From: Kaiparowitsia implicata GSE-PSE-MK54-09C
Lineage (GTDB): Bacteria > Cyanobacteriota > Cyanobacteriia > Elainellales > Elainellaceae
NCBI GenBank assembly: GCA_019359435.1
Contig: JAHHHI010000084.1
Coordinates: 1-64,000 of the forward strand
Length of the DNA stretch: 64,000 nucleotides
Direction of reading: 5' to 3'
Below the pieces are notes generated by a model, which was given only the letters and a program-made list of their open reading frames with translations, was not told where the DNA came from and searched no databases. The translations under genes were made by a program, and so were the position numbers. Positions 372 through 9,065 of the stretch are shown here, in pieces (position 1 is the stretch's first letter; every line of letters starts with the position of its first letter).

Positions 372-1118
372 GCTATTCGGGCAGCGACAAACCAAGCGTC
401 GCTTCAGCCCATCCTTTCCACAGCCTCCATCCAACGCTCCAACTAACGCTCCACATCAGAAACAGCTAGAACCCAAATCGCCCCAGCCTGTCTCAAGGCA
501 GGTAAACTCGAGGGCGATCGCATGGCAATGATTGGATAAAAATTGAGAACCCCCTCAAATTCAACTCACTATTTTCATAAAATTTGACATTTTTCCACTG
601 CATTAGCACACTATTAATACTGTGGTCACTCATAAGCTCTGCCGTAATGTAGCTTATTGACGTTCCACACATCACTACCGGTTGTTACTGCACAGTCATG
701 TTGCTGCAAGTCATGTTGCTGCACGGTCAAGAGAGTTCAGCCCGCTGGCGCTCAATGGTAAGCGTAGGTTGAACACAAGGCGGGCTAGGTTAATGGGTAA
801 CATGACGTCCCTAGCGCCATCTGTAGAGCAGGCGAATATCAGAGCTTTGGGTTCTCTCGTTTGCTCCTCGGATTAATGGTTATAGGGCTGAGTCTGATCA
901 TAGACGCGGCGGAGTAGCCGTTGGGCTGTGACGCGCAGACTGAAGGCAATGAAAGGAAAACAGCGCGGAAACAGGGGTGAACCTGAAATTCCGGCTGAGA
1001 TCGCGCCATCGTCAGCTACCATAACGGTGCCTGAAGCTAGAGATGCAGGATGTGTTGGTGCATCCCTCTGGCGGCGAGTGCAGAACAGCTCATCCCATCT
1101 TTAAGGAACACTCGCTAC
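372..1118. other. 747-bp spacer between phoU remnant and rnr
   Basis: No supportable gene is present. A perfect 15-bp tandem duplication (AGTCATGTTGCTGCA) lies at 694-723. The short open frames here have no protein-like composition or ribosome-binding sites. The rnr promoter presumably lies in the right-hand part. Confidence 0.5.
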
Positions 1119-3578
1119 ATGGATTTCTCAATTGCGTCGCTGCTGGCCAACTTTCCCGATGATAAGTTGGTGGCACCCAAAGCCCTCGAAAAGAAAATGA
1201 ACTGCGAAGACGACGAAGGTCTGAAGCGGTTGCAGATTGCGCTGGATGCGCTAGAACGCATTGGCATTTTGACGAAAGAACGAGGCAAGTATCGGCGCAT
1301 TTTTGATGAAGATGTCGTAGAAGGCAAGCTGCGGTGTTCGAGTAAGGGGTTTTGCTTTGCGATTCAAGAGGTCGAAAGCTCAGAAGATATCTACATTCGC
1401 GAAAGCCAGTTGAACACGGCTTGGAATGGCGATCGCGTGCTGGTTAAAGTCACCAAAGAAGGCAGTCGCCGCCGCAGCCCCGAAGGAGAAGTGAAACTCA
1501 TTCTTGAACGGGCCAATAGCTCGGTGCTGGCACGGGTGAAGCAAGACGAAACCCAGTTTCGGGCAGTGCCGCTAGATGATCGCCTGCTATTTGAGCTAGA
1601 GCTGGCTCCCAGTGTTGACCCACTGCTAGAAGAAACGCTAGAACAACTGGTGCATGTGGAGATTCTGCGCTATCCCTTAGGGCAACACTTGCCGCTGGGG
1701 CGGGTGGCCCAGGTGCTAGGCAGCGATGCCCAAGAAGCATCAGACATCGACATTGTGTGCTGCAAGCATGACCTGCCGCGCCACTTTCCCGATGCGGTGA
1801 TAGAAGCTGTGCAGGCGCTGCCTACCAAGCTGCGCAAAACTGACCTAAAGAAGCGCTTAGACTTGCGCGACCTGCCCACTATCACAATTGATGGCCCGGC
1901 CCATCCCCATAGTCCTGCCATTGACGATGCGCTCAGCTTGGAAAAGCTAGATGACGACCTGTGGCGGTTGGGGATTCACATTGCTGATGTGTCTTACTAT
2001 GTGTCGGCGCGATCGCCCATCGACCTTGAAGCCCAAAAGCGCAGCACTTCCGTGTTCCTCGGCGAGGTGGTGATTCCCATGCTGCCTGAGCAATTGCACC
2101 ACCTGTGCTCGCTGCTCCCCGGAGAAGACCGCTTAGCCCTGTCGGTGCTAATTACGCTCAACGCAGATGGAGAGGTTCAGTCCTACGAAATTCACCCTAG
2201 CGTCATTCAGGTTGATCATCACCTAGACTACCAACAGGCCCAGGCCATCTTGCAGCGCGACCAGCCTGCCGTCCCAGACTCGCCGTATCCCCTGCCTGAG
2301 CTGGATAGCCTCAAGGCCATGCAACCCATTTTTGAGCTGGTGGATCAGCTCTATGCCATCACCAAAGCTGTGCGTGAGCAGCGGCAGCAGCGGGGCGCGT
2401 TTGACCTGAATTTGCCTGAGAGCATCTTCCCCGAAGAGCACAGCGCCGAGTTGGGTAAGTTTCTATCTAACAAATTCCAGTATGACGATGAGGGCGAGCT
2501 GAGCGCCATGGTGGTGTCGTCGCTGCTGCCAGCTCGCGCCATTGTGACCGAGCTAATGCTATTGGCCAATCAACTGGTGGCCGAGCACCTAATTGAGCTG
2601 CAGGTGCCTGCGATCTATCGCCTGCACCGCTCGCCCGACCCCGCCGATGTGCAAGAACTGGCGAAGTTGATCGCCAACATGGGCATTGACTATGAGCCAG
2701 AGCAAGAGGATGAGGTGCATCCCCGCGATTATCAGCACCTTACCCAGTTTTTTGCTGATTCTCAGGCTGAGCGGGTGCTGACCTATCTACTATTGGAAAC
2801 ACTCAAACCCGCCAGCTACAGCACCACATCCGGGCCACACTTTGGATTGGCGCTCGAGCGCGGCTATACCCACTTCACCTCACCGCTGCGTCGCTACCCC
2901 GATCTGCTGATTCATCGCTTGCTGCATACGGTGTTTGAACAGGGGCGCGATCGCCGCACCACGCGCTCAAAAGAACGGTATGACCTGCACAGCAGCACTA
3001 GCCATGGGCAGATCAACTGGAATGTGCTGATGACGGAACTGCAGGCCGAACTAGAGGAGCAGTTTGCAACACTGGTGGGGCACCTGACCGAGCGCGAAAA
3101 GCTAGCGCAAGAAGCCGAAGATGACCTCGAAGGCTTGAAGAAGGCCGAGTTCATGCAGGCTCGCACGGGTGAACTGTTCCACGGCATCATTACCGGGGTG
3201 CAGTCCTATGGCTTCTTTGTAGAAATTGAAGAACTGCTGGTTGAAGGGCTGGTTCATGTCAGCTCGCTTAAAGACGATTGGTATGAATACCGCTCGCGCC
3301 AGCAAAAGCTGGTGGGCCGCAAAAACCGCAAACAGTTCCGTTTGGGCGATCGCGTCGAAGTGCAAGTCAAGAGTGTAGACTACTACCGTCAGCAGATTGA
3401 CCTAGTGGCGGTGGGTGGCGGCAGCGAAGCCGACGACGATGACGATGAGGACTTTGCCGATACCGATGCCGAGTTTGATCGGGACTTTACCGCTGAAGCC
3501 GAGGATGCGGATGATGACGAGAATGGCGAAGATCGGGATGACGAGGACGACAACGACAGCGACAACGACAACGAGTAA
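1119..3578 (+). CDS. rnr: Ribonuclease R (RNase II/R family 3'-5' exoribonuclease)
   Basis: Processive 3'-5' exoribonuclease of the RNB family, acting in mRNA and rRNA decay in the cytoplasm. With the ATG at 1119 (AAGGAA about ten bases upstream) the product is 819 residues; an upstream in-frame start at 1050 has no comparable ribosome-binding site. Order of parts: N-terminal winged-helix-like segment starting MDFSIASLLANF, cold-shock/OB domains to about residue 230, RNB catalytic domain with the acidic motif SPAIDDALS near residue 265 and the GLALERGYTHFTSPLRRYPD segment near 580, and an S1 domain from about residue 684. The last 50 residues are almost all Asp/Glu, an unusual tail, since many RNase R proteins end in a basic tail. 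The following hairpin at 3617-3648 probably ends the transcript. Confidence 0.93.
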   Translation: MDFSIASLLANFPDDKLVAPKALEKKMNCEDDEGLKRLQIALDALERIGILTKERGKYRRIFDEDVVEGKLRCSSKGFCFAIQEVESSEDIYIRESQLNTAWNGDRVLVKVTKEGSRRRSPEGEVKLILERANSSVLARVKQDETQFRAVPLDDRLLFELELAPSVDPLLEETLEQLVHVEILRYPLGQHLPLGRVAQVLGSDAQEASDIDIVCCKHDLPRHFPDAVIEAVQALPTKLRKTDLKKRLDLRDLPTITIDGPAHPHSPAIDDALSLEKLDDDLWRLGIHIADVSYYVSARSPIDLEAQKRSTSVFLGEVVIPMLPEQLHHLCSLLPGEDRLALSVLITLNADGEVQSYEIHPSVIQVDHHLDYQQAQAILQRDQPAVPDSPYPLPELDSLKAMQPIFELVDQLYAITKAVREQRQQRGAFDLNLPESIFPEEHSAELGKFLSNKFQYDDEGELSAMVVSSLLPARAIVTELMLLANQLVAEHLIELQVPAIYRLHRSPDPADVQELAKLIANMGIDYEPEQEDEVHPRDYQHLTQFFADSQAERVLTYLLLETLKPASYSTTSGPHFGLALERGYTHFTSPLRRYPDLLIHRLLHTVFEQGRDRRTTRSKERYDLHSSTSHGQINWNVLMTELQAELEEQFATLVGHLTEREKLAQEAEDDLEGLKKAEFMQARTGELFHGIITGVQSYGFFVEIEELLVEGLVHVSSLKDDWYEYRSRQQKLVGRKNRKQFRLGDRVEVQVKSVDYYRQQIDLVAVGGGSEADDDDDEDFADTDAEFDRDFTAEAEDADDDENGEDRDDEDDNDSDNDNE

Positions 3579-3616
3579 GGCAATTTCTGCCCACGAAAAC
3601 TCACTTTAACCTGCAG

Positions 3617-3648
3617 TGCATTGGGCAAATGGCTTTTTGCCCAATGCA
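3617..3648 (+). terminator. Hairpin after rnr
   Basis: Perfect 13-bp arms (TGCATTGGGCAAA and its complement) around a 6-base loop, 39 bases past the rnr stop codon. There is no run of T after it, so it may be a 3'-end stabiliser or a weak terminator. Confidence 0.6.
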
Positions 3649-3851
3649 GGGACGTTCGTTTCGAGAAATGTTTTAAGGAAACTGCGGGGTAATGTATAGA
3701 TCAGCGAACTGTTGTAGGGCCGTTTTTCGGCTCAGTTCGGCCCAAGGTCTGACGATGCTGCTGCGACTAGCCTTTGCGATGAGGCCCTTTATGATGGAGA
3801 TAGGGGCATGCTGCTCCTGTCCGCTACGTCCGCGCCACGCGCGATAACTTT

Positions 3852-4481
3852 GTGTCGTCTCGTCCATTAATTTTAGGAATTACGGGTGCGTCTGGGTTAA
3901 TTTATGCCGTGCGTGCCCTCAAGTTTCTGTTGCAGGCTGACTACACGGTGGATGTGGTAGCCTCTAAAGCCGCCTATATGGTGTGGCAGGCCGAAAACCA
4001 GGTGCGCATGCCACTCGACCCGATTCAGCAAGAGCAGTTTTGGCGTCAGCAGGCGGAGGTCGACACAGGCGGCAAGCTGCGCTGTCACCCCTGGGGCGAT
4101 GTGGGCGCCAGTATTGCCAGCGGCTCGTTTCGGACGCAGGGGATGGTGATTATGCCCTGTAGTATGAGCACCGTGGGCAAATTGGCGGCGGGGCTGAGTT
4201 CTGACCTATTAGAGCGCGCGGCTGATGTGCAGCTTAAGGAAGGGCGATCGCTCGTTCTAGTACCCCGTGAAACGCCGTTGAGCCTCATCCACCTGCGCAA
4301 CCTCACCACCTTGGCCGAAGCTGGGGCGCGCATTGTCCCTGCTATCCCCGCTTGGTACCATCATCCCCAAACGGTGAATGACCTGGTTGATTTTGTCGTG
4401 GCGCGGGCGCTCGATCAGCTCGATGTGGACTGCGTGCCCCTAGAGCGATGGCAGGGGCATTTACCAACGGATGGGGAGTAA
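3852..4481 (+). CDS. ubiX: Flavin prenyltransferase UbiX
   Basis: Makes prenylated FMN, the cofactor of UbiD-type decarboxylases, from FMN and dimethylallyl phosphate. The 209-residue product has the family signatures GITGASGLIYA near the N-terminus (flavin phosphate binding), the PCSMSTVGKLAAG segment, and LVPRETPLSLIHLRN followed by PAIPAWYHHP. Length is typical. The GTG at 3852 fits the family N-terminus; no ATG is available close by. It stands alone, with rnr upstream and a membrane protein downstream. In cyanobacteria UbiX/UbiD serve plastoquinone-type quinone synthesis; this role is inferred from the family. Confidence 0.93.
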   Translation: MSSRPLILGITGASGLIYAVRALKFLLQADYTVDVVASKAAYMVWQAENQVRMPLDPIQQEQFWRQQAEVDTGGKLRCHPWGDVGASIASGSFRTQGMVIMPCSMSTVGKLAAGLSSDLLERAADVQLKEGRSLVLVPRETPLSLIHLRNLTTLAEAGARIVPAIPAWYHHPQTVNDLVDFVVARALDQLDVDCVPLERWQGHLPTDGE

Positions 4482-4574
4482 CGTCTGAGCCGGGTTACTC
4501 TAAACCAATCAGCCGTAAAATCCGGCCTGACGGGACTAACAGATTAAATCAGATTGAATGCGGATCAATAAACG

Positions 4575-5936
4575 ATGGCTAGACTAGTTCTGCTATTGCT
4601 GCTGCTGGGGGCACTGGTCATTCTGGTGTTCCAGAATATGACGCCGGTGGGGCTGGTGGTGTTGGGGGTATCGCTGCCGCCGCTGCCCCTAGCGCTGTGG
4701 GTGATCGGGGCGATCGCCGCCGGAGCCCTTACCACCATCATTCTGTCGGCCCTCATCGGGCCAGGTCGCCGCTCAGGCCCCAAACGGTCTAGAGGATTAG
4801 GACGGGGCGATCGCCCCACTGCACCCTCTGGTACCCCCTGGACACCCCCCGCGTGGACGCGCCCGACAGCCCCGGCAGACCCTGTCGCCGCCGACCCTGC
4901 CACGGCTGAGCCCCGCGACAGAACCCGCGCCAGCCGCGCCGCCCCAAGCCGCGACGCATCCCTAGACGATGACTGGGACGTTCGCCCCATCGACGACTGG
5001 GATGACTGGGCCGCCGCAAAACCCGCCAGCGTCGCCTCGTCTCCATCCCCCGCTGCCAATCGCCCCCGAGACGATGCAAATACCCCAGAGTGGCGCTACC
5101 AGCCGCCGACCTATCCCTCACCCTTTGGCACACCCGCCTATGAAGACCCCACCCCTAAAGACCGAGAAGTGTGGGATGAATGGGTTGAAGAAGAAAGCCT
5201 AATCGATGTCGCCTACGAAGAGCCCAGCCAGTCCGCGAGTTCTGCGGCCAATTTCCCCACGACTGCTGCCGCGTCAAACGCCGCAGAGGAGGCACTTCCC
5301 CCGCGTAAAATTGTCGAAATTCAGCGATCGCCCGAGTCTCAAGATCGGTCAGGCACGGTGTACTCCTTTAGCTACCGCCGCGACCAGCTCAGCGTAGACG
5401 ACACTCGACCCGATGCCAGCACTCCGGCTCCGCCCGCTACCGATTCAGATGATTCAGGATCTGTGTCCCAAGAAAACGCCAAGATAGACGGCTCTCCGCA
5501 GGCCGCACAGCCGACCCCACCTGCTGAAGATCAACCGATTCGCATCATCATTCCGCCCTATACCGCCCCTAGCCCATCGTCGCCCAGCAGCCCCACGGTG
5601 CTACAGCCCACTTCCCCAGATGAGCTGCCGTCAGGTTCATCGAAAGGTTCATCGAATCTATCGGATGAACCTGACGACGATGAGGTGTTCGGCGCATCTC
5701 CCTTTCAATTGGGAGACGATGTGGATGCCTTTGAATCTCATCCTGACCGAGACGGAGACGATCTTGAGGAGGGTAGTTGGTTGAATGACGAGCCCGCGAG
5801 TGCAGCGTCAGATGCCCGCGTTTCTCAAGAGGGGGATAAAGAAGTTTGGGACGATTGGGACGACGAGTGGGATGACGACGATGACGATACCGATCCCCCC
5901 CCGCCCCAGCAAGGAAACCCGCCGCTGCGCCTGTAG
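4575..5936 (+). CDS. LapA/DUF1049-like membrane protein with long acidic disordered tail
   Basis: The first 60 residues form two membrane helices with a short linker containing QNMTPVGLVVLGVSLPPLPL, the pattern of LapA-domain (DUF1049) proteins. The next roughly 390 residues are low-complexity, rich in Pro, Ser, Asp and Glu, and probably disordered in the cytoplasm. Within them short Trp-Asp motifs recur: DDDWDVRPIDDWDDW near residue 131, REVWDEWVEEE near 198, and KEVWDDWDDEWDDDDDD near 423. These look like repeated linear binding motifs. The start ATG follows a weak purine stretch. No partner genes are adjacent; aroK follows after 146 bases. The function of the tail is unknown; a scaffold or tether role is only a guess. 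Confidence 0.7.
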   Translation: MARLVLLLLLLGALVILVFQNMTPVGLVVLGVSLPPLPLALWVIGAIAAGALTTIILSALIGPGRRSGPKRSRGLGRGDRPTAPSGTPWTPPAWTRPTAPADPVAADPATAEPRDRTRASRAAPSRDASLDDDWDVRPIDDWDDWAAAKPASVASSPSPAANRPRDDANTPEWRYQPPTYPSPFGTPAYEDPTPKDREVWDEWVEEESLIDVAYEEPSQSASSAANFPTTAAASNAAEEALPPRKIVEIQRSPESQDRSGTVYSFSYRRDQLSVDDTRPDASTPAPPATDSDDSGSVSQENAKIDGSPQAAQPTPPAEDQPIRIIIPPYTAPSPSSPSSPTVLQPTSPDELPSGSSKGSSNLSDEPDDDEVFGASPFQLGDDVDAFESHPDRDGDDLEEGSWLNDEPASAASDARVSQEGDKEVWDDWDDEWDDDDDDTDPPPPQQGNPPLRL

Positions 5937-6082
5937 CCATTCCTGTCGCTGTGCTGTAGCCATACCCGTGCCGATTTAACCCGACTTTAACCCCCCGGAG
6001 ACTGGTGTTACGGCTCGCAAGCCGCTAAGGTTTTGATCACGCTAGGGTTGGCATAGGCCAACTGGTGACTGAGGACTCAATC

Positions 6083-6670
6083 ATGTCAGACATTACACTG
6101 CCGTTTGATTTATCTACCCGGCTGCGCGGGGTCAATATTTATTTAGTGGGCATGATGGGCAGTGGCAAAACCACCATTGCTCAAGTGCTCGCTTCTAAGC
6201 TGGGCTATCGGTTTATGGATACCGATGCCTTGGTAGAGCAAGTAGCGGGCTGCTCGGTGGCTGAGCTGTTTGCCACCCAAGGCGAAGCAGCCTTTCGACA
6301 GCTCGAAACTCAGGTCTTGGGTGAGCTGTCTGCGTTTTCGCGGTTGGCGATCGCCACAGGCGGCGGCATCGTCCTCGATCGCCTCAACTGGAGCTATTTG
6401 CACCATGGCTTGGTGGTGTGGCTGGATGTGCCGGTCGAGCATCTCTATCAGCGACTGCAGCACGATACTCAGCGCCCTCTGCTGCAAAACCCTGATCCCA
6501 AGCAGCAGTTGCAGAACCTGCTAGAACAACGGCGATCGCTCTATGCCCAAGCTGATGTGCGGGTGCTGCTGCAGGGCGATGAACCCCCGGCTCAGGTGGG
6601 CGATCGCGTGCTAGAAAGCATATTGGCTGAGCTAAAACCCCAGGCCTATCACTCGGCTGACGTCAACTAA
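6083..6670 (+). CDS. aroK: Shikimate kinase
   Basis: Phosphorylates shikimate at the 3-OH with ATP in aromatic amino acid synthesis. The 195-residue product carries the P-loop GMMGSGKTT at residues 23-31, the DTD motif in YRFMDTDALVE, the substrate-binding FRQLE segment, GGGIV, and the lid region with QRPLL. The ATG at 6083 is preferred over the in-frame GTG at 6065 because GAGG lies nine bases upstream of it. The N-terminus is about 15 residues longer than in E. coli AroK, usual for cyanobacteria. Confidence 0.94.
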   Translation: MSDITLPFDLSTRLRGVNIYLVGMMGSGKTTIAQVLASKLGYRFMDTDALVEQVAGCSVAELFATQGEAAFRQLETQVLGELSAFSRLAIATGGGIVLDRLNWSYLHHGLVVWLDVPVEHLYQRLQHDTQRPLLQNPDPKQQLQNLLEQRRSLYAQADVRVLLQGDEPPAQVGDRVLESILAELKPQAYHSADVN

Positions 6671-7061: not shown

Positions 7062-9065
7062 ATGCCCCCCGATCTAAGCTCCACCAACGAACGCGAATTG
7101 CAACGATTGCTGGTGTCGGTTTTGGCTAACCCTAATCGGCTAGATCTGTTTGTGGCCATTTGCGATGATCGGAACCTACAGGCGAAGGTGATCAATGCGT
7201 ACGAAACGGCTCTGAGAGCAAAAGGCGTTACCCCGTATCAAACCAGGCTCACCCTCAAGCGAGCCAGTCTAAAAGCCACCCTCACCGCCCTTGTGGCCCA
7301 AGAGCCCAGCCTTCGCAGCCAAACAAAAGCGGTGGTGACCGTATTGGGTGGCGCAGATTTATTGAGGGTAAAGCTAACAGAGGCCAAATCGGAGCAGGAA
7401 AAATTCTTTTTCTCATTGCAATGGACACGGGAATCGCTGCGGGCCTTCCACTTTCCGGTGGTGGTGTGGCTCTCGGATGCTGTCGCGACAGGTGTCGCCC
7501 AGCAGGCCCAAGACTTTTGGAGCTGGCGCAGTGGCGTCTTTGAGTTTGAGACTACCGTCTCCCCTGTTCCACTCCCTAAATTTCGCCCCGACCCACCCCC
7601 ATTGGAGCAGCCCCCTGCCCCTGATGCCCTAACGGCTCCCGACCTAACGGAACTGATCCAACAAATCACTGAAATTCAACAACAAACCCCTCAATCCCCC
7701 CTCCTCATAACTCTTTACATCGATCTGGGAGATGCCTGTAGAAAAGCCGCTTACGCCCCAGACAGCGCTCTACAAGCCTATGAGCAGGCCATCAATTTAG
7801 CCGAAACCCTAAAAGACAAACCAGGTCTGGCTAGAGCGCTTCACCAAACAGGTGGCGCTCTATGTGATTCTGGGCAACATGAGCAAGCGATCGCCTTCTA
7901 TCAGCAGGCCTTGGAAATGTGCCGCGACATGGGCAATCGCCGCGATGAGGCAAGTACTTTAGGCAATTTGGGGGTTACGTATGATTCTTTGGGGCAATAC
8001 CCGCGTGCGATTGAGTTTTACCAGCAGGCATTGGCGATCGCAATCGAGATTGGCGATCGCAGTGATGAAGCAAGCATATTGGACAGTTTGGGAAATACAC
8101 ACCATGCTTTGGGGCAATACCCGCGTGCGATTGAGTTCAGTCAGCAGGCATTGGCGATCGCAACCGAGATTGGCCATCGCCTTGTTGAGGCGAGTGCCTT
8201 AATCAATTTGGGGACTACGTATGATTCTTTGGAGCAATACCCACGTGCGATTGAGTTCAATCAGCAGGCATTGGTAATCGCAACCGAGATTGGCCATCGC
8301 CTCCTTGAGGCAAAAGCTTTAAACAATCTCGGGACTGCGTATAAGTTTCTGGGACAATACCCGCGTGCGATTGAGTTCTGCCAGAAGTCGTTGGCGATCG
8401 CAACTGAGATTGGCGATTGGTGGAGTGAGGTTCTTGCCTTAATAGGTTTAGGAAGTTCGTGCCATGCTCTGGGACAATACCCGCGTGCGATTGAGTTCTA
8501 CCAGCAGGCATTGGCGATCGCCCTCGATTACGATCGCTTCACTGCGGCGATGACTTTAAAGGGTTTGGGGAGTGCTTACCATTCTTTAGGACAATACCCG
8601 CGTGCGATTGAGTCCTACCGGCAAGCGGGGGATGTATATAGTTCTTTAGGGCAATATCAGCGTGCAATTGAGTCTTACCAACAAGCATTGGCGATCGAAA
8701 CCGAGATTGGCGATCGCCATGGTGCAGGGTTATCGCTGTCGAACTTAGGCTATGCTCTGGCGGAGCTTGATCGGCCTTATGAATCGGCCCAGAGTTACCA
8801 ACATGCCTTAGATCTTTATAAAGAGCTAAAACTCGACCACATGATTGAGGGTTGTGAACAAGCTATCGCAGAGCAAAAGTTCATCATCGCGACGCAACGG
8901 CGAGTTGCGCCCCCTATCCTACACGAGCCAATACTCTATGAGCAGCCGCTCTCAGTTAAGCGCCCACAATCCCCAACCAAACAGCTTCAGCGGCAAAGAA
9001 ATCTCTGGTTTTGGCTGTTGGCAGTCATCACGATTGCGGCGATCTGCCTCTGGTATTTCCTTTAG
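7062..9065 (+). CDS. Tail-anchored TPR protein with degenerate ATPase-like N-terminal domain
   Basis: A 667-residue protein in three parts. Residues 1-165 resemble the NTPase-like module found before TPR arrays in many cyanobacterial proteins: it has FPVVVWLSDAV and then AQDFWSWRSGVFEF, but no P-loop. Residues about 215-605 hold kinesin-light-chain-type TPR units with the core LGQYPRAIEFYQQALAIA. A single membrane helix (WFWLLAVITIAAICLWYFL) ends the chain, so most of the protein should face the cytoplasm. The TPR units repeat every 120 bases with very high DNA identity between about 7980 and 8600, indicating recent expansion. The last two are only 60 bases apart, so one unit has lost half its length. 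Likely a protein-interaction scaffold; partner unknown. Confidence 0.85.
   Translation: MPPDLSSTNERELQRLLVSVLANPNRLDLFVAICDDRNLQAKVINAYETALRAKGVTPYQTRLTLKRASLKATLTALVAQEPSLRSQTKAVVTVLGGADLLRVKLTEAKSEQEKFFFSLQWTRESLRAFHFPVVVWLSDAVATGVAQQAQDFWSWRSGVFEFETTVSPVPLPKFRPDPPPLEQPPAPDALTAPDLTELIQQITEIQQQTPQSPLLITLYIDLGDACRKAAYAPDSALQAYEQAINLAETLKDKPGLARALHQTGGALCDSGQHEQAIAFYQQALEMCRDMGNRRDEASTLGNLGVTYDSLGQYPRAIEFYQQALAIAIEIGDRSDEASILDSLGNTHHALGQYPRAIEFSQQALAIATEIGHRLVEASALINLGTTYDSLEQYPRAIEFNQQALVIATEIGHRLLEAKALNNLGTAYKFLGQYPRAIEFCQKSLAIATEIGDWWSEVLALIGLGSSCHALGQYPRAIEFYQQALAIALDYDRFTAAMTLKGLGSAYHSLGQYPRAIESYRQAGDVYSSLGQYQRAIESYQQALAIETEIGDRHGAGLSLSNLGYALAELDRPYESAQSYQHALDLYKELKLDHMIEGCEQAIAEQKFIIATQRRVAPPILHEPILYEQPLSVKRPQSPTKQLQRQRNLWFWLLAVITIAAICLWYFL
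7981..8700 (+). repeat. Tandem 120-bp repeats inside the TPR gene
   Basis: The string CAATACCCGCGTGCGATTGA or a one-base variant of it recurs at the same offset in units beginning at 7981, 8101, 8221, 8341 and 8461. It comes again near 8591, and in weaker form near 8651. The first five units are exactly 120 bases (40 codons); the last spacing is 60 bases. Confidence 0.9.

Follow-up and report, generated by a model that had tools for sequence, protein, structure and literature searches.

The gene downstream of ubiX in the window (the whole stretch of 64,000 nucleotides analyzed in this study) encodes a member of a cyanobacterial protein family, in which a predicted LapA-like membrane anchor is combined with a long acidic tail bearing conserved Trp residues embedded in Asp/Glu. 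The same motif code is kept over a large part of cyanobacteria, mostly beside ubiX, while the rest of the tail drifts. When short motifs persist in the otherwise variable tail of a membrane-anchored protein, docking sites are the most natural interpretation, and this pattern points to a tail used for docking rather than to filler. We consider it reasonably probable that the protein is anchored in a membrane and exposes to the cytosol a disordered tail, the motifs of which dock one or more soluble partners.

The open reading frame (ORF) pointed out in an earlier reading made from the sequence alone (henceforth the sequence-only reading) was found to be intact, running uninterrupted from ATG to stop (Table 1). 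The three motif places claimed in the same reading were found as well (patches A to C in Table 1), and patch A has one extra DDDW. The scan of window positions 3500-6200 for promoters and terminators gave no signal above chance. As for the neighboring genes, the end of the exoribonuclease ORF (window 3430-3578) encodes an Asp/Glu-rich low-complexity tail of its own. The acidic Trp found within 70 residues of the C-terminus of the neighboring exoribonucleases (8 counted) was set aside, as it lies in LKDDWYEYR, presumably of the S1 domain and outside the acidic tail. Approximately 1.1 kb downstream of the gene of interest, window positions 7062-9065 (+) encode a protein of 667 aa, in which numerous mutually similar repeats of the tetratricopeptide type were recognized by eye.

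Table 1. Positions of the gene of interest, the parts of its product, and the neighboring genes in the window.
Feature	Position	Strand	Basis
LapA-like hairpin and acidic tail protein, 453 aa	4575..5936	+	ORF translation; matches in 43/60 genomes
LapA-like pair of membrane helices, residues 2-61 (predicted H2-20, H39-61)	4578..4757	+	AlphaFold2, hhalign
Basic stretch after helix 2, residues 64-80 (GRRSGPKRSRGLGRGDR)	4764..4814	+	Sequence
Acidic-Trp patch A, residues 131-145 DDDWDVRPIDDWDDW; family DDW...DDW pair, W134 and W145	4965..5009	+	
Acidic-Trp patch B, residues 197-207 REVWDEWVEEE	5163..5195	+	
Conserved non-Trp module, first half, residues 245-270 KIVEIQRSPESQDRSGTVYSFSYRRD	5307..5384	+	
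Conserved non-Trp module, second half, residues 321-329 PIRIIIPPY	5535..5561	+	
Acidic-Trp patch C near the C-terminus, residues 422-438 KEVWDDWDDEWDDDDDD	5838..5888	+	
ubiX (flavin prenyltransferase), upstream neighbor	3852..4481	+	TIGR00421, 173 bits
VacB/RNase II family exoribonuclease (rnr-like)	1050..3578	+	TIGR00358, 460 bits
Shikimate kinase (aroK), downstream neighbor in some lineages	6065..6670	+	PF01202, 172 bits

The search for relatives gave matches in 43 of the 60 genomes, the own genome included. At E<=0.001, 289 of the 388 genomes of the class were matched, a number that cannot stand for the size of the family because the weak matches include ordinary LapA-domain proteins. In the scan for ubiX, the best 80 of the 570 confirmed ubiX relatives were retained, all of which were at named cyanobacterial loci. 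With the membrane part as the query, 70 of these 80 loci (best 80 of 570) were found to carry the gene downstream of and co-oriented with ubiX, at a median distance of 125 bases and a maximum of 719; the gene was not found nearby in the remaining 10, in two of which the contig ends. The exoribonuclease was present in 71 and aroK, inside the fetched flank, in 38 of the same best 80 of 570. Furthermore, ubiX adjoined the gene in 12 of the 17 loci around deeper or divergent relatives and did not in the other five (L283-L287). The order exoribonuclease-ubiX-gene was observed in L276, which is of a Synechococcus elongatus-like genome that we take for S. elongatus, and in four f2 loci (L277, L278, L280, and L315); the genomes of these four are taken for Prochlorococcaceae. 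In G225 (f2), ubiX was present and no relative was found beside it. In L276, L277, L280, and L315, a small protein, which we presume to be DUF2996-like, is encoded after the gene, as read by eye; it may be a candidate partner. The next gene after the DUF2996-like one was read as that of the chlorophyll cyclase AcsF in L276 and L280.

Hereafter, a Trp residue is regarded as acidic when at least three Asp/Glu occur within three residues, and this criterion was applied family-wide. When the proteins at named ubiX loci were chosen by the membrane part alone (best 80 of 570), all of the 56 distinct proteins possessed acidic Trp; loss of the motifs behind a retained membrane part, which the sequence-only reading had put forward as its own refutation, was not seen among them. 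Acidic Trp was also found in all of the 28 proteins of the first relatives search (window included), the loci of which were found with the whole protein. In addition, at least one acidic Trp occurred in each of 40 places from other families, which were hand-picked from the matches of the relatives search, the class-wide search, and the search with the non-Trp module (the Trp columns were included in profile A1 and excluded from profile A2) and comprise two duplicates of main-set proteins. In the alignment of 46 sequences, W428 was present in 45 of the 45 sequences having the column (one of the 46 is gapped), W145 in 42 of 44, and W134 in 41 of 46. The columns of patch B were filled in under half of the 46 sequences, with W200 in 18/19 and W203 in 19/22. 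The columns of W428, W145, and W134 were among the best kept of the tail, the top-residue share of an average well-filled tail column being 0.50. The consensus of the 46 sequences comprised, in this order, the hairpin, DDWE...DDWDxxE, YExxQxPxSxxQSGSVYSYSYRxP...GVGKTESVYDADYRVIxPPY and DDDDWGFxDDD. Judged from this alignment, the family-wide signal is the pair DDW...DDW plus [DE]DW near the C-terminus.

As a check, the sequence-only reading suggested looking for conserved EVWD[DE]W in cyanobacterial LapA-like proteins. The acidic Trp residues were conserved, but the exact string E[VI]WD[DE]W was confined mostly to near relatives, being found in nine of 125 proteins (a set including the window protein and a few repeats), eight of which belong to the family of the window. 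Likewise, the idea of motifs binding a partner at the membrane is supported by their conservation, but the multivalency that accompanied it does not hold as a rule, since 34 of the 56 ubiX-locus proteins (best 80 of 570) have exactly three Trp in the tail and one has two. Strong multivalency would rather be a lineage expansion that fits some lineages only.

Besides the Trp patches, the tail possesses a second module, SGSVYSYSYR...VYDADYRVIxPPY, which was absent from the sequence-only reading. Its columns were kept at Y263 (45/46), S264 (46/46), Y267 (43/46), R323 (46/46), and P328 (46/46). Compared with the consensus DADYRVIxPPY, the window protein does not keep the DADY part. The profile of the module gave a match at 5.8e-5 in the own genome, and the module alone as the query matched 119 of 386 genomes of the phylum at E<=0.01, a count from which divergent members are missing and in which two matches outside the class are probably due to chance. 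The RVI-PP segment was the block of the highest pLDDT past residue 70 (68 and 69 versus about 44-63 in the adjoining blocks). Three matches of the module at E about 1 in the search of solved structures were taken as chance.

Altogether, we propose that the hairpin, as predicted, would hold the protein in the membrane and that the tail would present short linear motifs, namely Trp residues in Asp/Glu patches and the Tyr/RVI-PP module. The most likely counterpart of each patch would be a soluble protein having a groove, in which an aromatic pocket is bordered by a basic rim, and this protein would be recruited to or held at the membrane by the patches. The long-tailed lineages, that of the window protein among them, may have multiplied the patches, leading to higher avidity. 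The conservation could alternatively serve self-association or another role. In the former case, the Tyr-rich module and the acidic-aromatic patches would jointly be stickers clustering the protein in the membrane, with no dedicated soluble partner. This reading would suit the short aromatic-charged motifs seen inside the long low-confidence tail and the rise in the number of patches with the tail length. The rise, measured for acidic Trp (Spearman 0.45 in the set of 124 proteins, the window and a few repeats included), is weak evidence because any constant density yields it. The patches are strongly acidic (the mean net charge of the tail is about -20) and should repel each other, and short tails are retained as well, although stickers would have no need of a tail with just one or two patches. 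We regard self-association as rather improbable. The candidate idea that the motif code is shared with other tails of the same genomes was not supported, as far as the variant [DE]DWDF is concerned: this pattern was found at 32 places in 30 genomes versus 25 for the reversed control pattern. Among the 30 places with loci, a readable disordered tail occurred in the family members only, and the others read were in larger ORFs, far from the end, or in reading frames too short to judge. For this variant, therefore, no common motif code leads to a partner.

The affiliation of the membrane part bears both on the docking-tail reading and on a second alternative, namely a LapA-type role in lipopolysaccharide/envelope assembly with a LapB-like TPR protein, of which the tail would be an elaboration. 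The window protein matched Pfam LapA_dom (PF06305) at E=0.02 and 15.2 bits, under the curated cut-off of 28, and the best score among 10 relatives was 17.8 bits, three of them having no match; all of the 11 members with scores seen fell short of the cut-off. When 46 members were scanned, LapA_dom matched 23 of them at E<=0.01 (best 3.1e-8), and a few members other than the 11 may pass the cut-off. By hhalign, the family profile (A3) was aligned to that of LapA-domain proteins (A4) with a probability of 95.9% and an E-value of 6.3e-9 over 67 columns. On this profile comparison, the N-terminal two-helix hairpin is homologous to that of the LapA-domain proteins, including the E. coli YciS type. 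Thus, the designation LapA-like, given in the sequence-only reading, can be retained, but the protein is not to be called LapA. The relationship of the hairpins and the matches of half of the 46 members would suit the envelope role. On the other hand, besides the members under the cut-off, there are two LapA_dom matches over the cut-off elsewhere in the own genome, and in L001, the one of the two that was read, Trp patches of this kind were not seen by eye. In addition, the sole LapB-type zinc ribbon (PF18073, found once in each of 12 genomes) of the own genome forms the N-terminal part of an ORF of 480 aa, which we read as RadA. We hold the envelope role to be improbable. The family also differs from LapA in the long acidic disordered tail with the Trp motifs, as ordinary LapA-type tails comprise 26-68 residues (12 read). 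No acidic Trp was found in the latter (seven Trp in all), a weak control as these tails are short.

Regarding the tail itself, its description as a disordered stretch of 390 residues was borne out as a prediction. The helices of the hairpin were modeled by AlphaFold2 with block pLDDT of 67-86. Little was folded beyond the hairpin in both models, the first of which adds a five-residue helix (205-209), and the confidence in the tail was low in both. The tail of about 390 residues is predicted to be disordered. Of 124 family proteins, a set with the window and a few repeats, 111 have more Lys/Arg than Asp/Glu in the first 30 residues past helix 2, and, under the positive-inside rule, these basic residues suggest that the tail faces the cytosol. 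No model of Pfam or NCBIfam reached past the hairpin, and the hairpin match was below the cut-off where scores were seen. The window protein gave no match in the searches against NCBIfam and solved structures. Two isolated single-member matches to NCBIfam, obtained with the 43 proteins of A3 (window included), were taken as chance.

A third alternative is that the terminal [DE]DW is a tag for proteolysis or for another enzyme, like a degron or the C-terminal tip of SSB, which is acidic plus hydrophobic. Indeed, the motif is the very C-terminus in several lineages, either as an acidic run with a hydrophobic end resembling the SSB tip (DEEDWI in L065 and DEEDWDIPL in L206) or as KDDW and DDDW ends. 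However, in many other members the motif is internal and the end is basic or neutral; the motif is internal in the window protein as well, and the upstream pair is conserved too. Furthermore, the family proteins differ from SSB in being membrane proteins with Trp at the center of the motif. The tag reading is as improbable as the envelope role. The two S. elongatus-like tails end in FRVIKPP...EDDWDFVEKDDW and FRVVKPP...DDWDFVEQDDW, respectively. The two f17 members are minimal, with about 110 residues, and end in EDDWDFTEDWR and EDEWDFADDWD. The tails of the six f2 members (L222, L223, L224, L226, L228, and L315) are shorter still in motif: [FY]RV[ILV] followed by a basic stretch was found in all but L315, and three of the six tails end in [DE]DW and the others in ESW, DNWE, and STW. 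The oldest visible core thus seems to combine the hairpin with an RVI-like segment and, close to the C-terminus, a Trp motif, and the numerous patches of the window protein represent an expansion.

The excess of acidic Trp was evaluated against shuffled tails. The tail of the window protein (389 residues) contains 12 Trp, seven of which are acidic; the mean was 1.28 in 20,000 shuffles, and seven was never reached. WxxW occurs three times in the same tail, a number attained by 0.3% of the shuffles. In the own genome of 6.7 Mb, [DE][DE]W[DE][DE]W was found at two places, the window tail and the end of an unrelated ORF judged by eye to be an oxidoreductase. Across 135 distinct tails of the family (window included, along with 13 deep relatives chosen by eye), 404 of the 676 Trp were acidic, compared with 79 +/- 8 in composition-preserving shuffles; the proteins counted are mutually related and the counts are not independent. 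The main set left out L026 (a 62-aa fragment), L009 (no N-terminal match), and 14 duplicates. At least one acidic Trp was detected in 129 and at least two in 111 of the 135 tails, and the addition of L226, L228, and L240, two of which have acidic Trp, makes 131 of 138 tails with at least one. Chance composition is rejected as the source of the excess. Thus, drift in composition, by which an acidic low-complexity tail would have gathered Trp by chance, is refuted by the observed count, five times that of the shuffles, and by the Trp columns conserved across families, and retains next to no probability in spite of the acidic and repetitive nature of the tail. By the strict count, six of the 135 tails are devoid of acidic Trp (L217, L218, L221, L222, L223, and L243). 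L222 and L223 (f2) possess Trp near the end with too few acids under the criterion.

The hairpin and the acidic tail were kept and acidic Trp was absent in three f24 proteins, L217, L218, and L221 (G330, G513, and G462, respectively). Unlike these, L216 of f24 retained two DDW motifs. The split within f24 offers a natural test of the role of the motifs.

To our knowledge, descriptions of bacterial disordered tails with conserved short linear motifs are rare. The closest mechanistic likeness to the docking tail is found in the W-acidic adaptors of kinesin-1, which are eukaryotic, and no homology is claimed. According to a paper on these adaptors (PMC6214655), the motifs of SKIP and calsyntenin are disordered peptides, in which Trp is flanked by Asp/Glu, and are taken by a concave channel of the KLC TPR domain with low micromolar affinity; membrane proteins are among the adaptors. 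In the family proteins as well, Trp flanked by Asp/Glu lies in a predicted disordered region. A TPR partner would follow from this likeness as an analogy only. The conserved patches provide a precise, mutable peptide for partner fishing. In the literature on cyanobacterial LapA-type proteins and acidic/tryptophan motifs, no description of the family was found in the titles and the starts of the abstracts of the matches listed. A LapA-like anchor with a conserved motif tail is apparently undescribed, unless the family is identical with AncM.

AncM and CurT are, like the family examined here, cyanobacterial membrane proteins and shape thylakoids. CurT, presumably of the CAAD-domain family, is unlike the LapA-like family in this affiliation. 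Even at E<=1, no match was obtained in five Gloeobacterales-like genomes (four of f14 and one of f57), and E 3.7 was the best value reached by the profile in the loci around ubiX of these genomes. Among the f14 genomes, two were identified as Gloeobacter kilaueensis and G. violaceus, and a paper on the genus describes Gloeobacter as lacking thylakoids (PMC3806779). The CAAD (CURT1) domain is also missing from the same five genomes, and the origin of the CurT family is reported to coincide with that of thylakoids (PMC12462475). Nevertheless, the presence of CAAD and that of the family disagree in several genomes. CAAD was also missing from three f5 genomes, one f56 genome, and one f24 genome; the latter two carry a relative beside ubiX or nearby, and a doubtful relative was found in one of the three f5 genomes. 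Conversely, G036, G214, G225, G044, and G167 possess CAAD and no clear family member, and neither ubiX nor a relative was found in G036 and G214. Thus, the tie of the family to thylakoids is a lead and not a result. Speculatively, an undescribed docking protein could have spread with or just after the origin of thylakoids, and its Trp-acid code, the best-known examples of which are in eukaryotic cargo adaptors, could recruit a conserved soluble machine to a photosynthetic or biogenic membrane, a scenario that we consider unlikely on balance. As the family is apparently missing from Gloeobacter, which has no thylakoids, membrane biogenesis would be an obvious candidate process, though an unproven one. 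In the f57 genome G453, three near-alike tandem copies, carboxysome shell protein-like by eye, were observed downstream of ubiX (L313:3688-4783).
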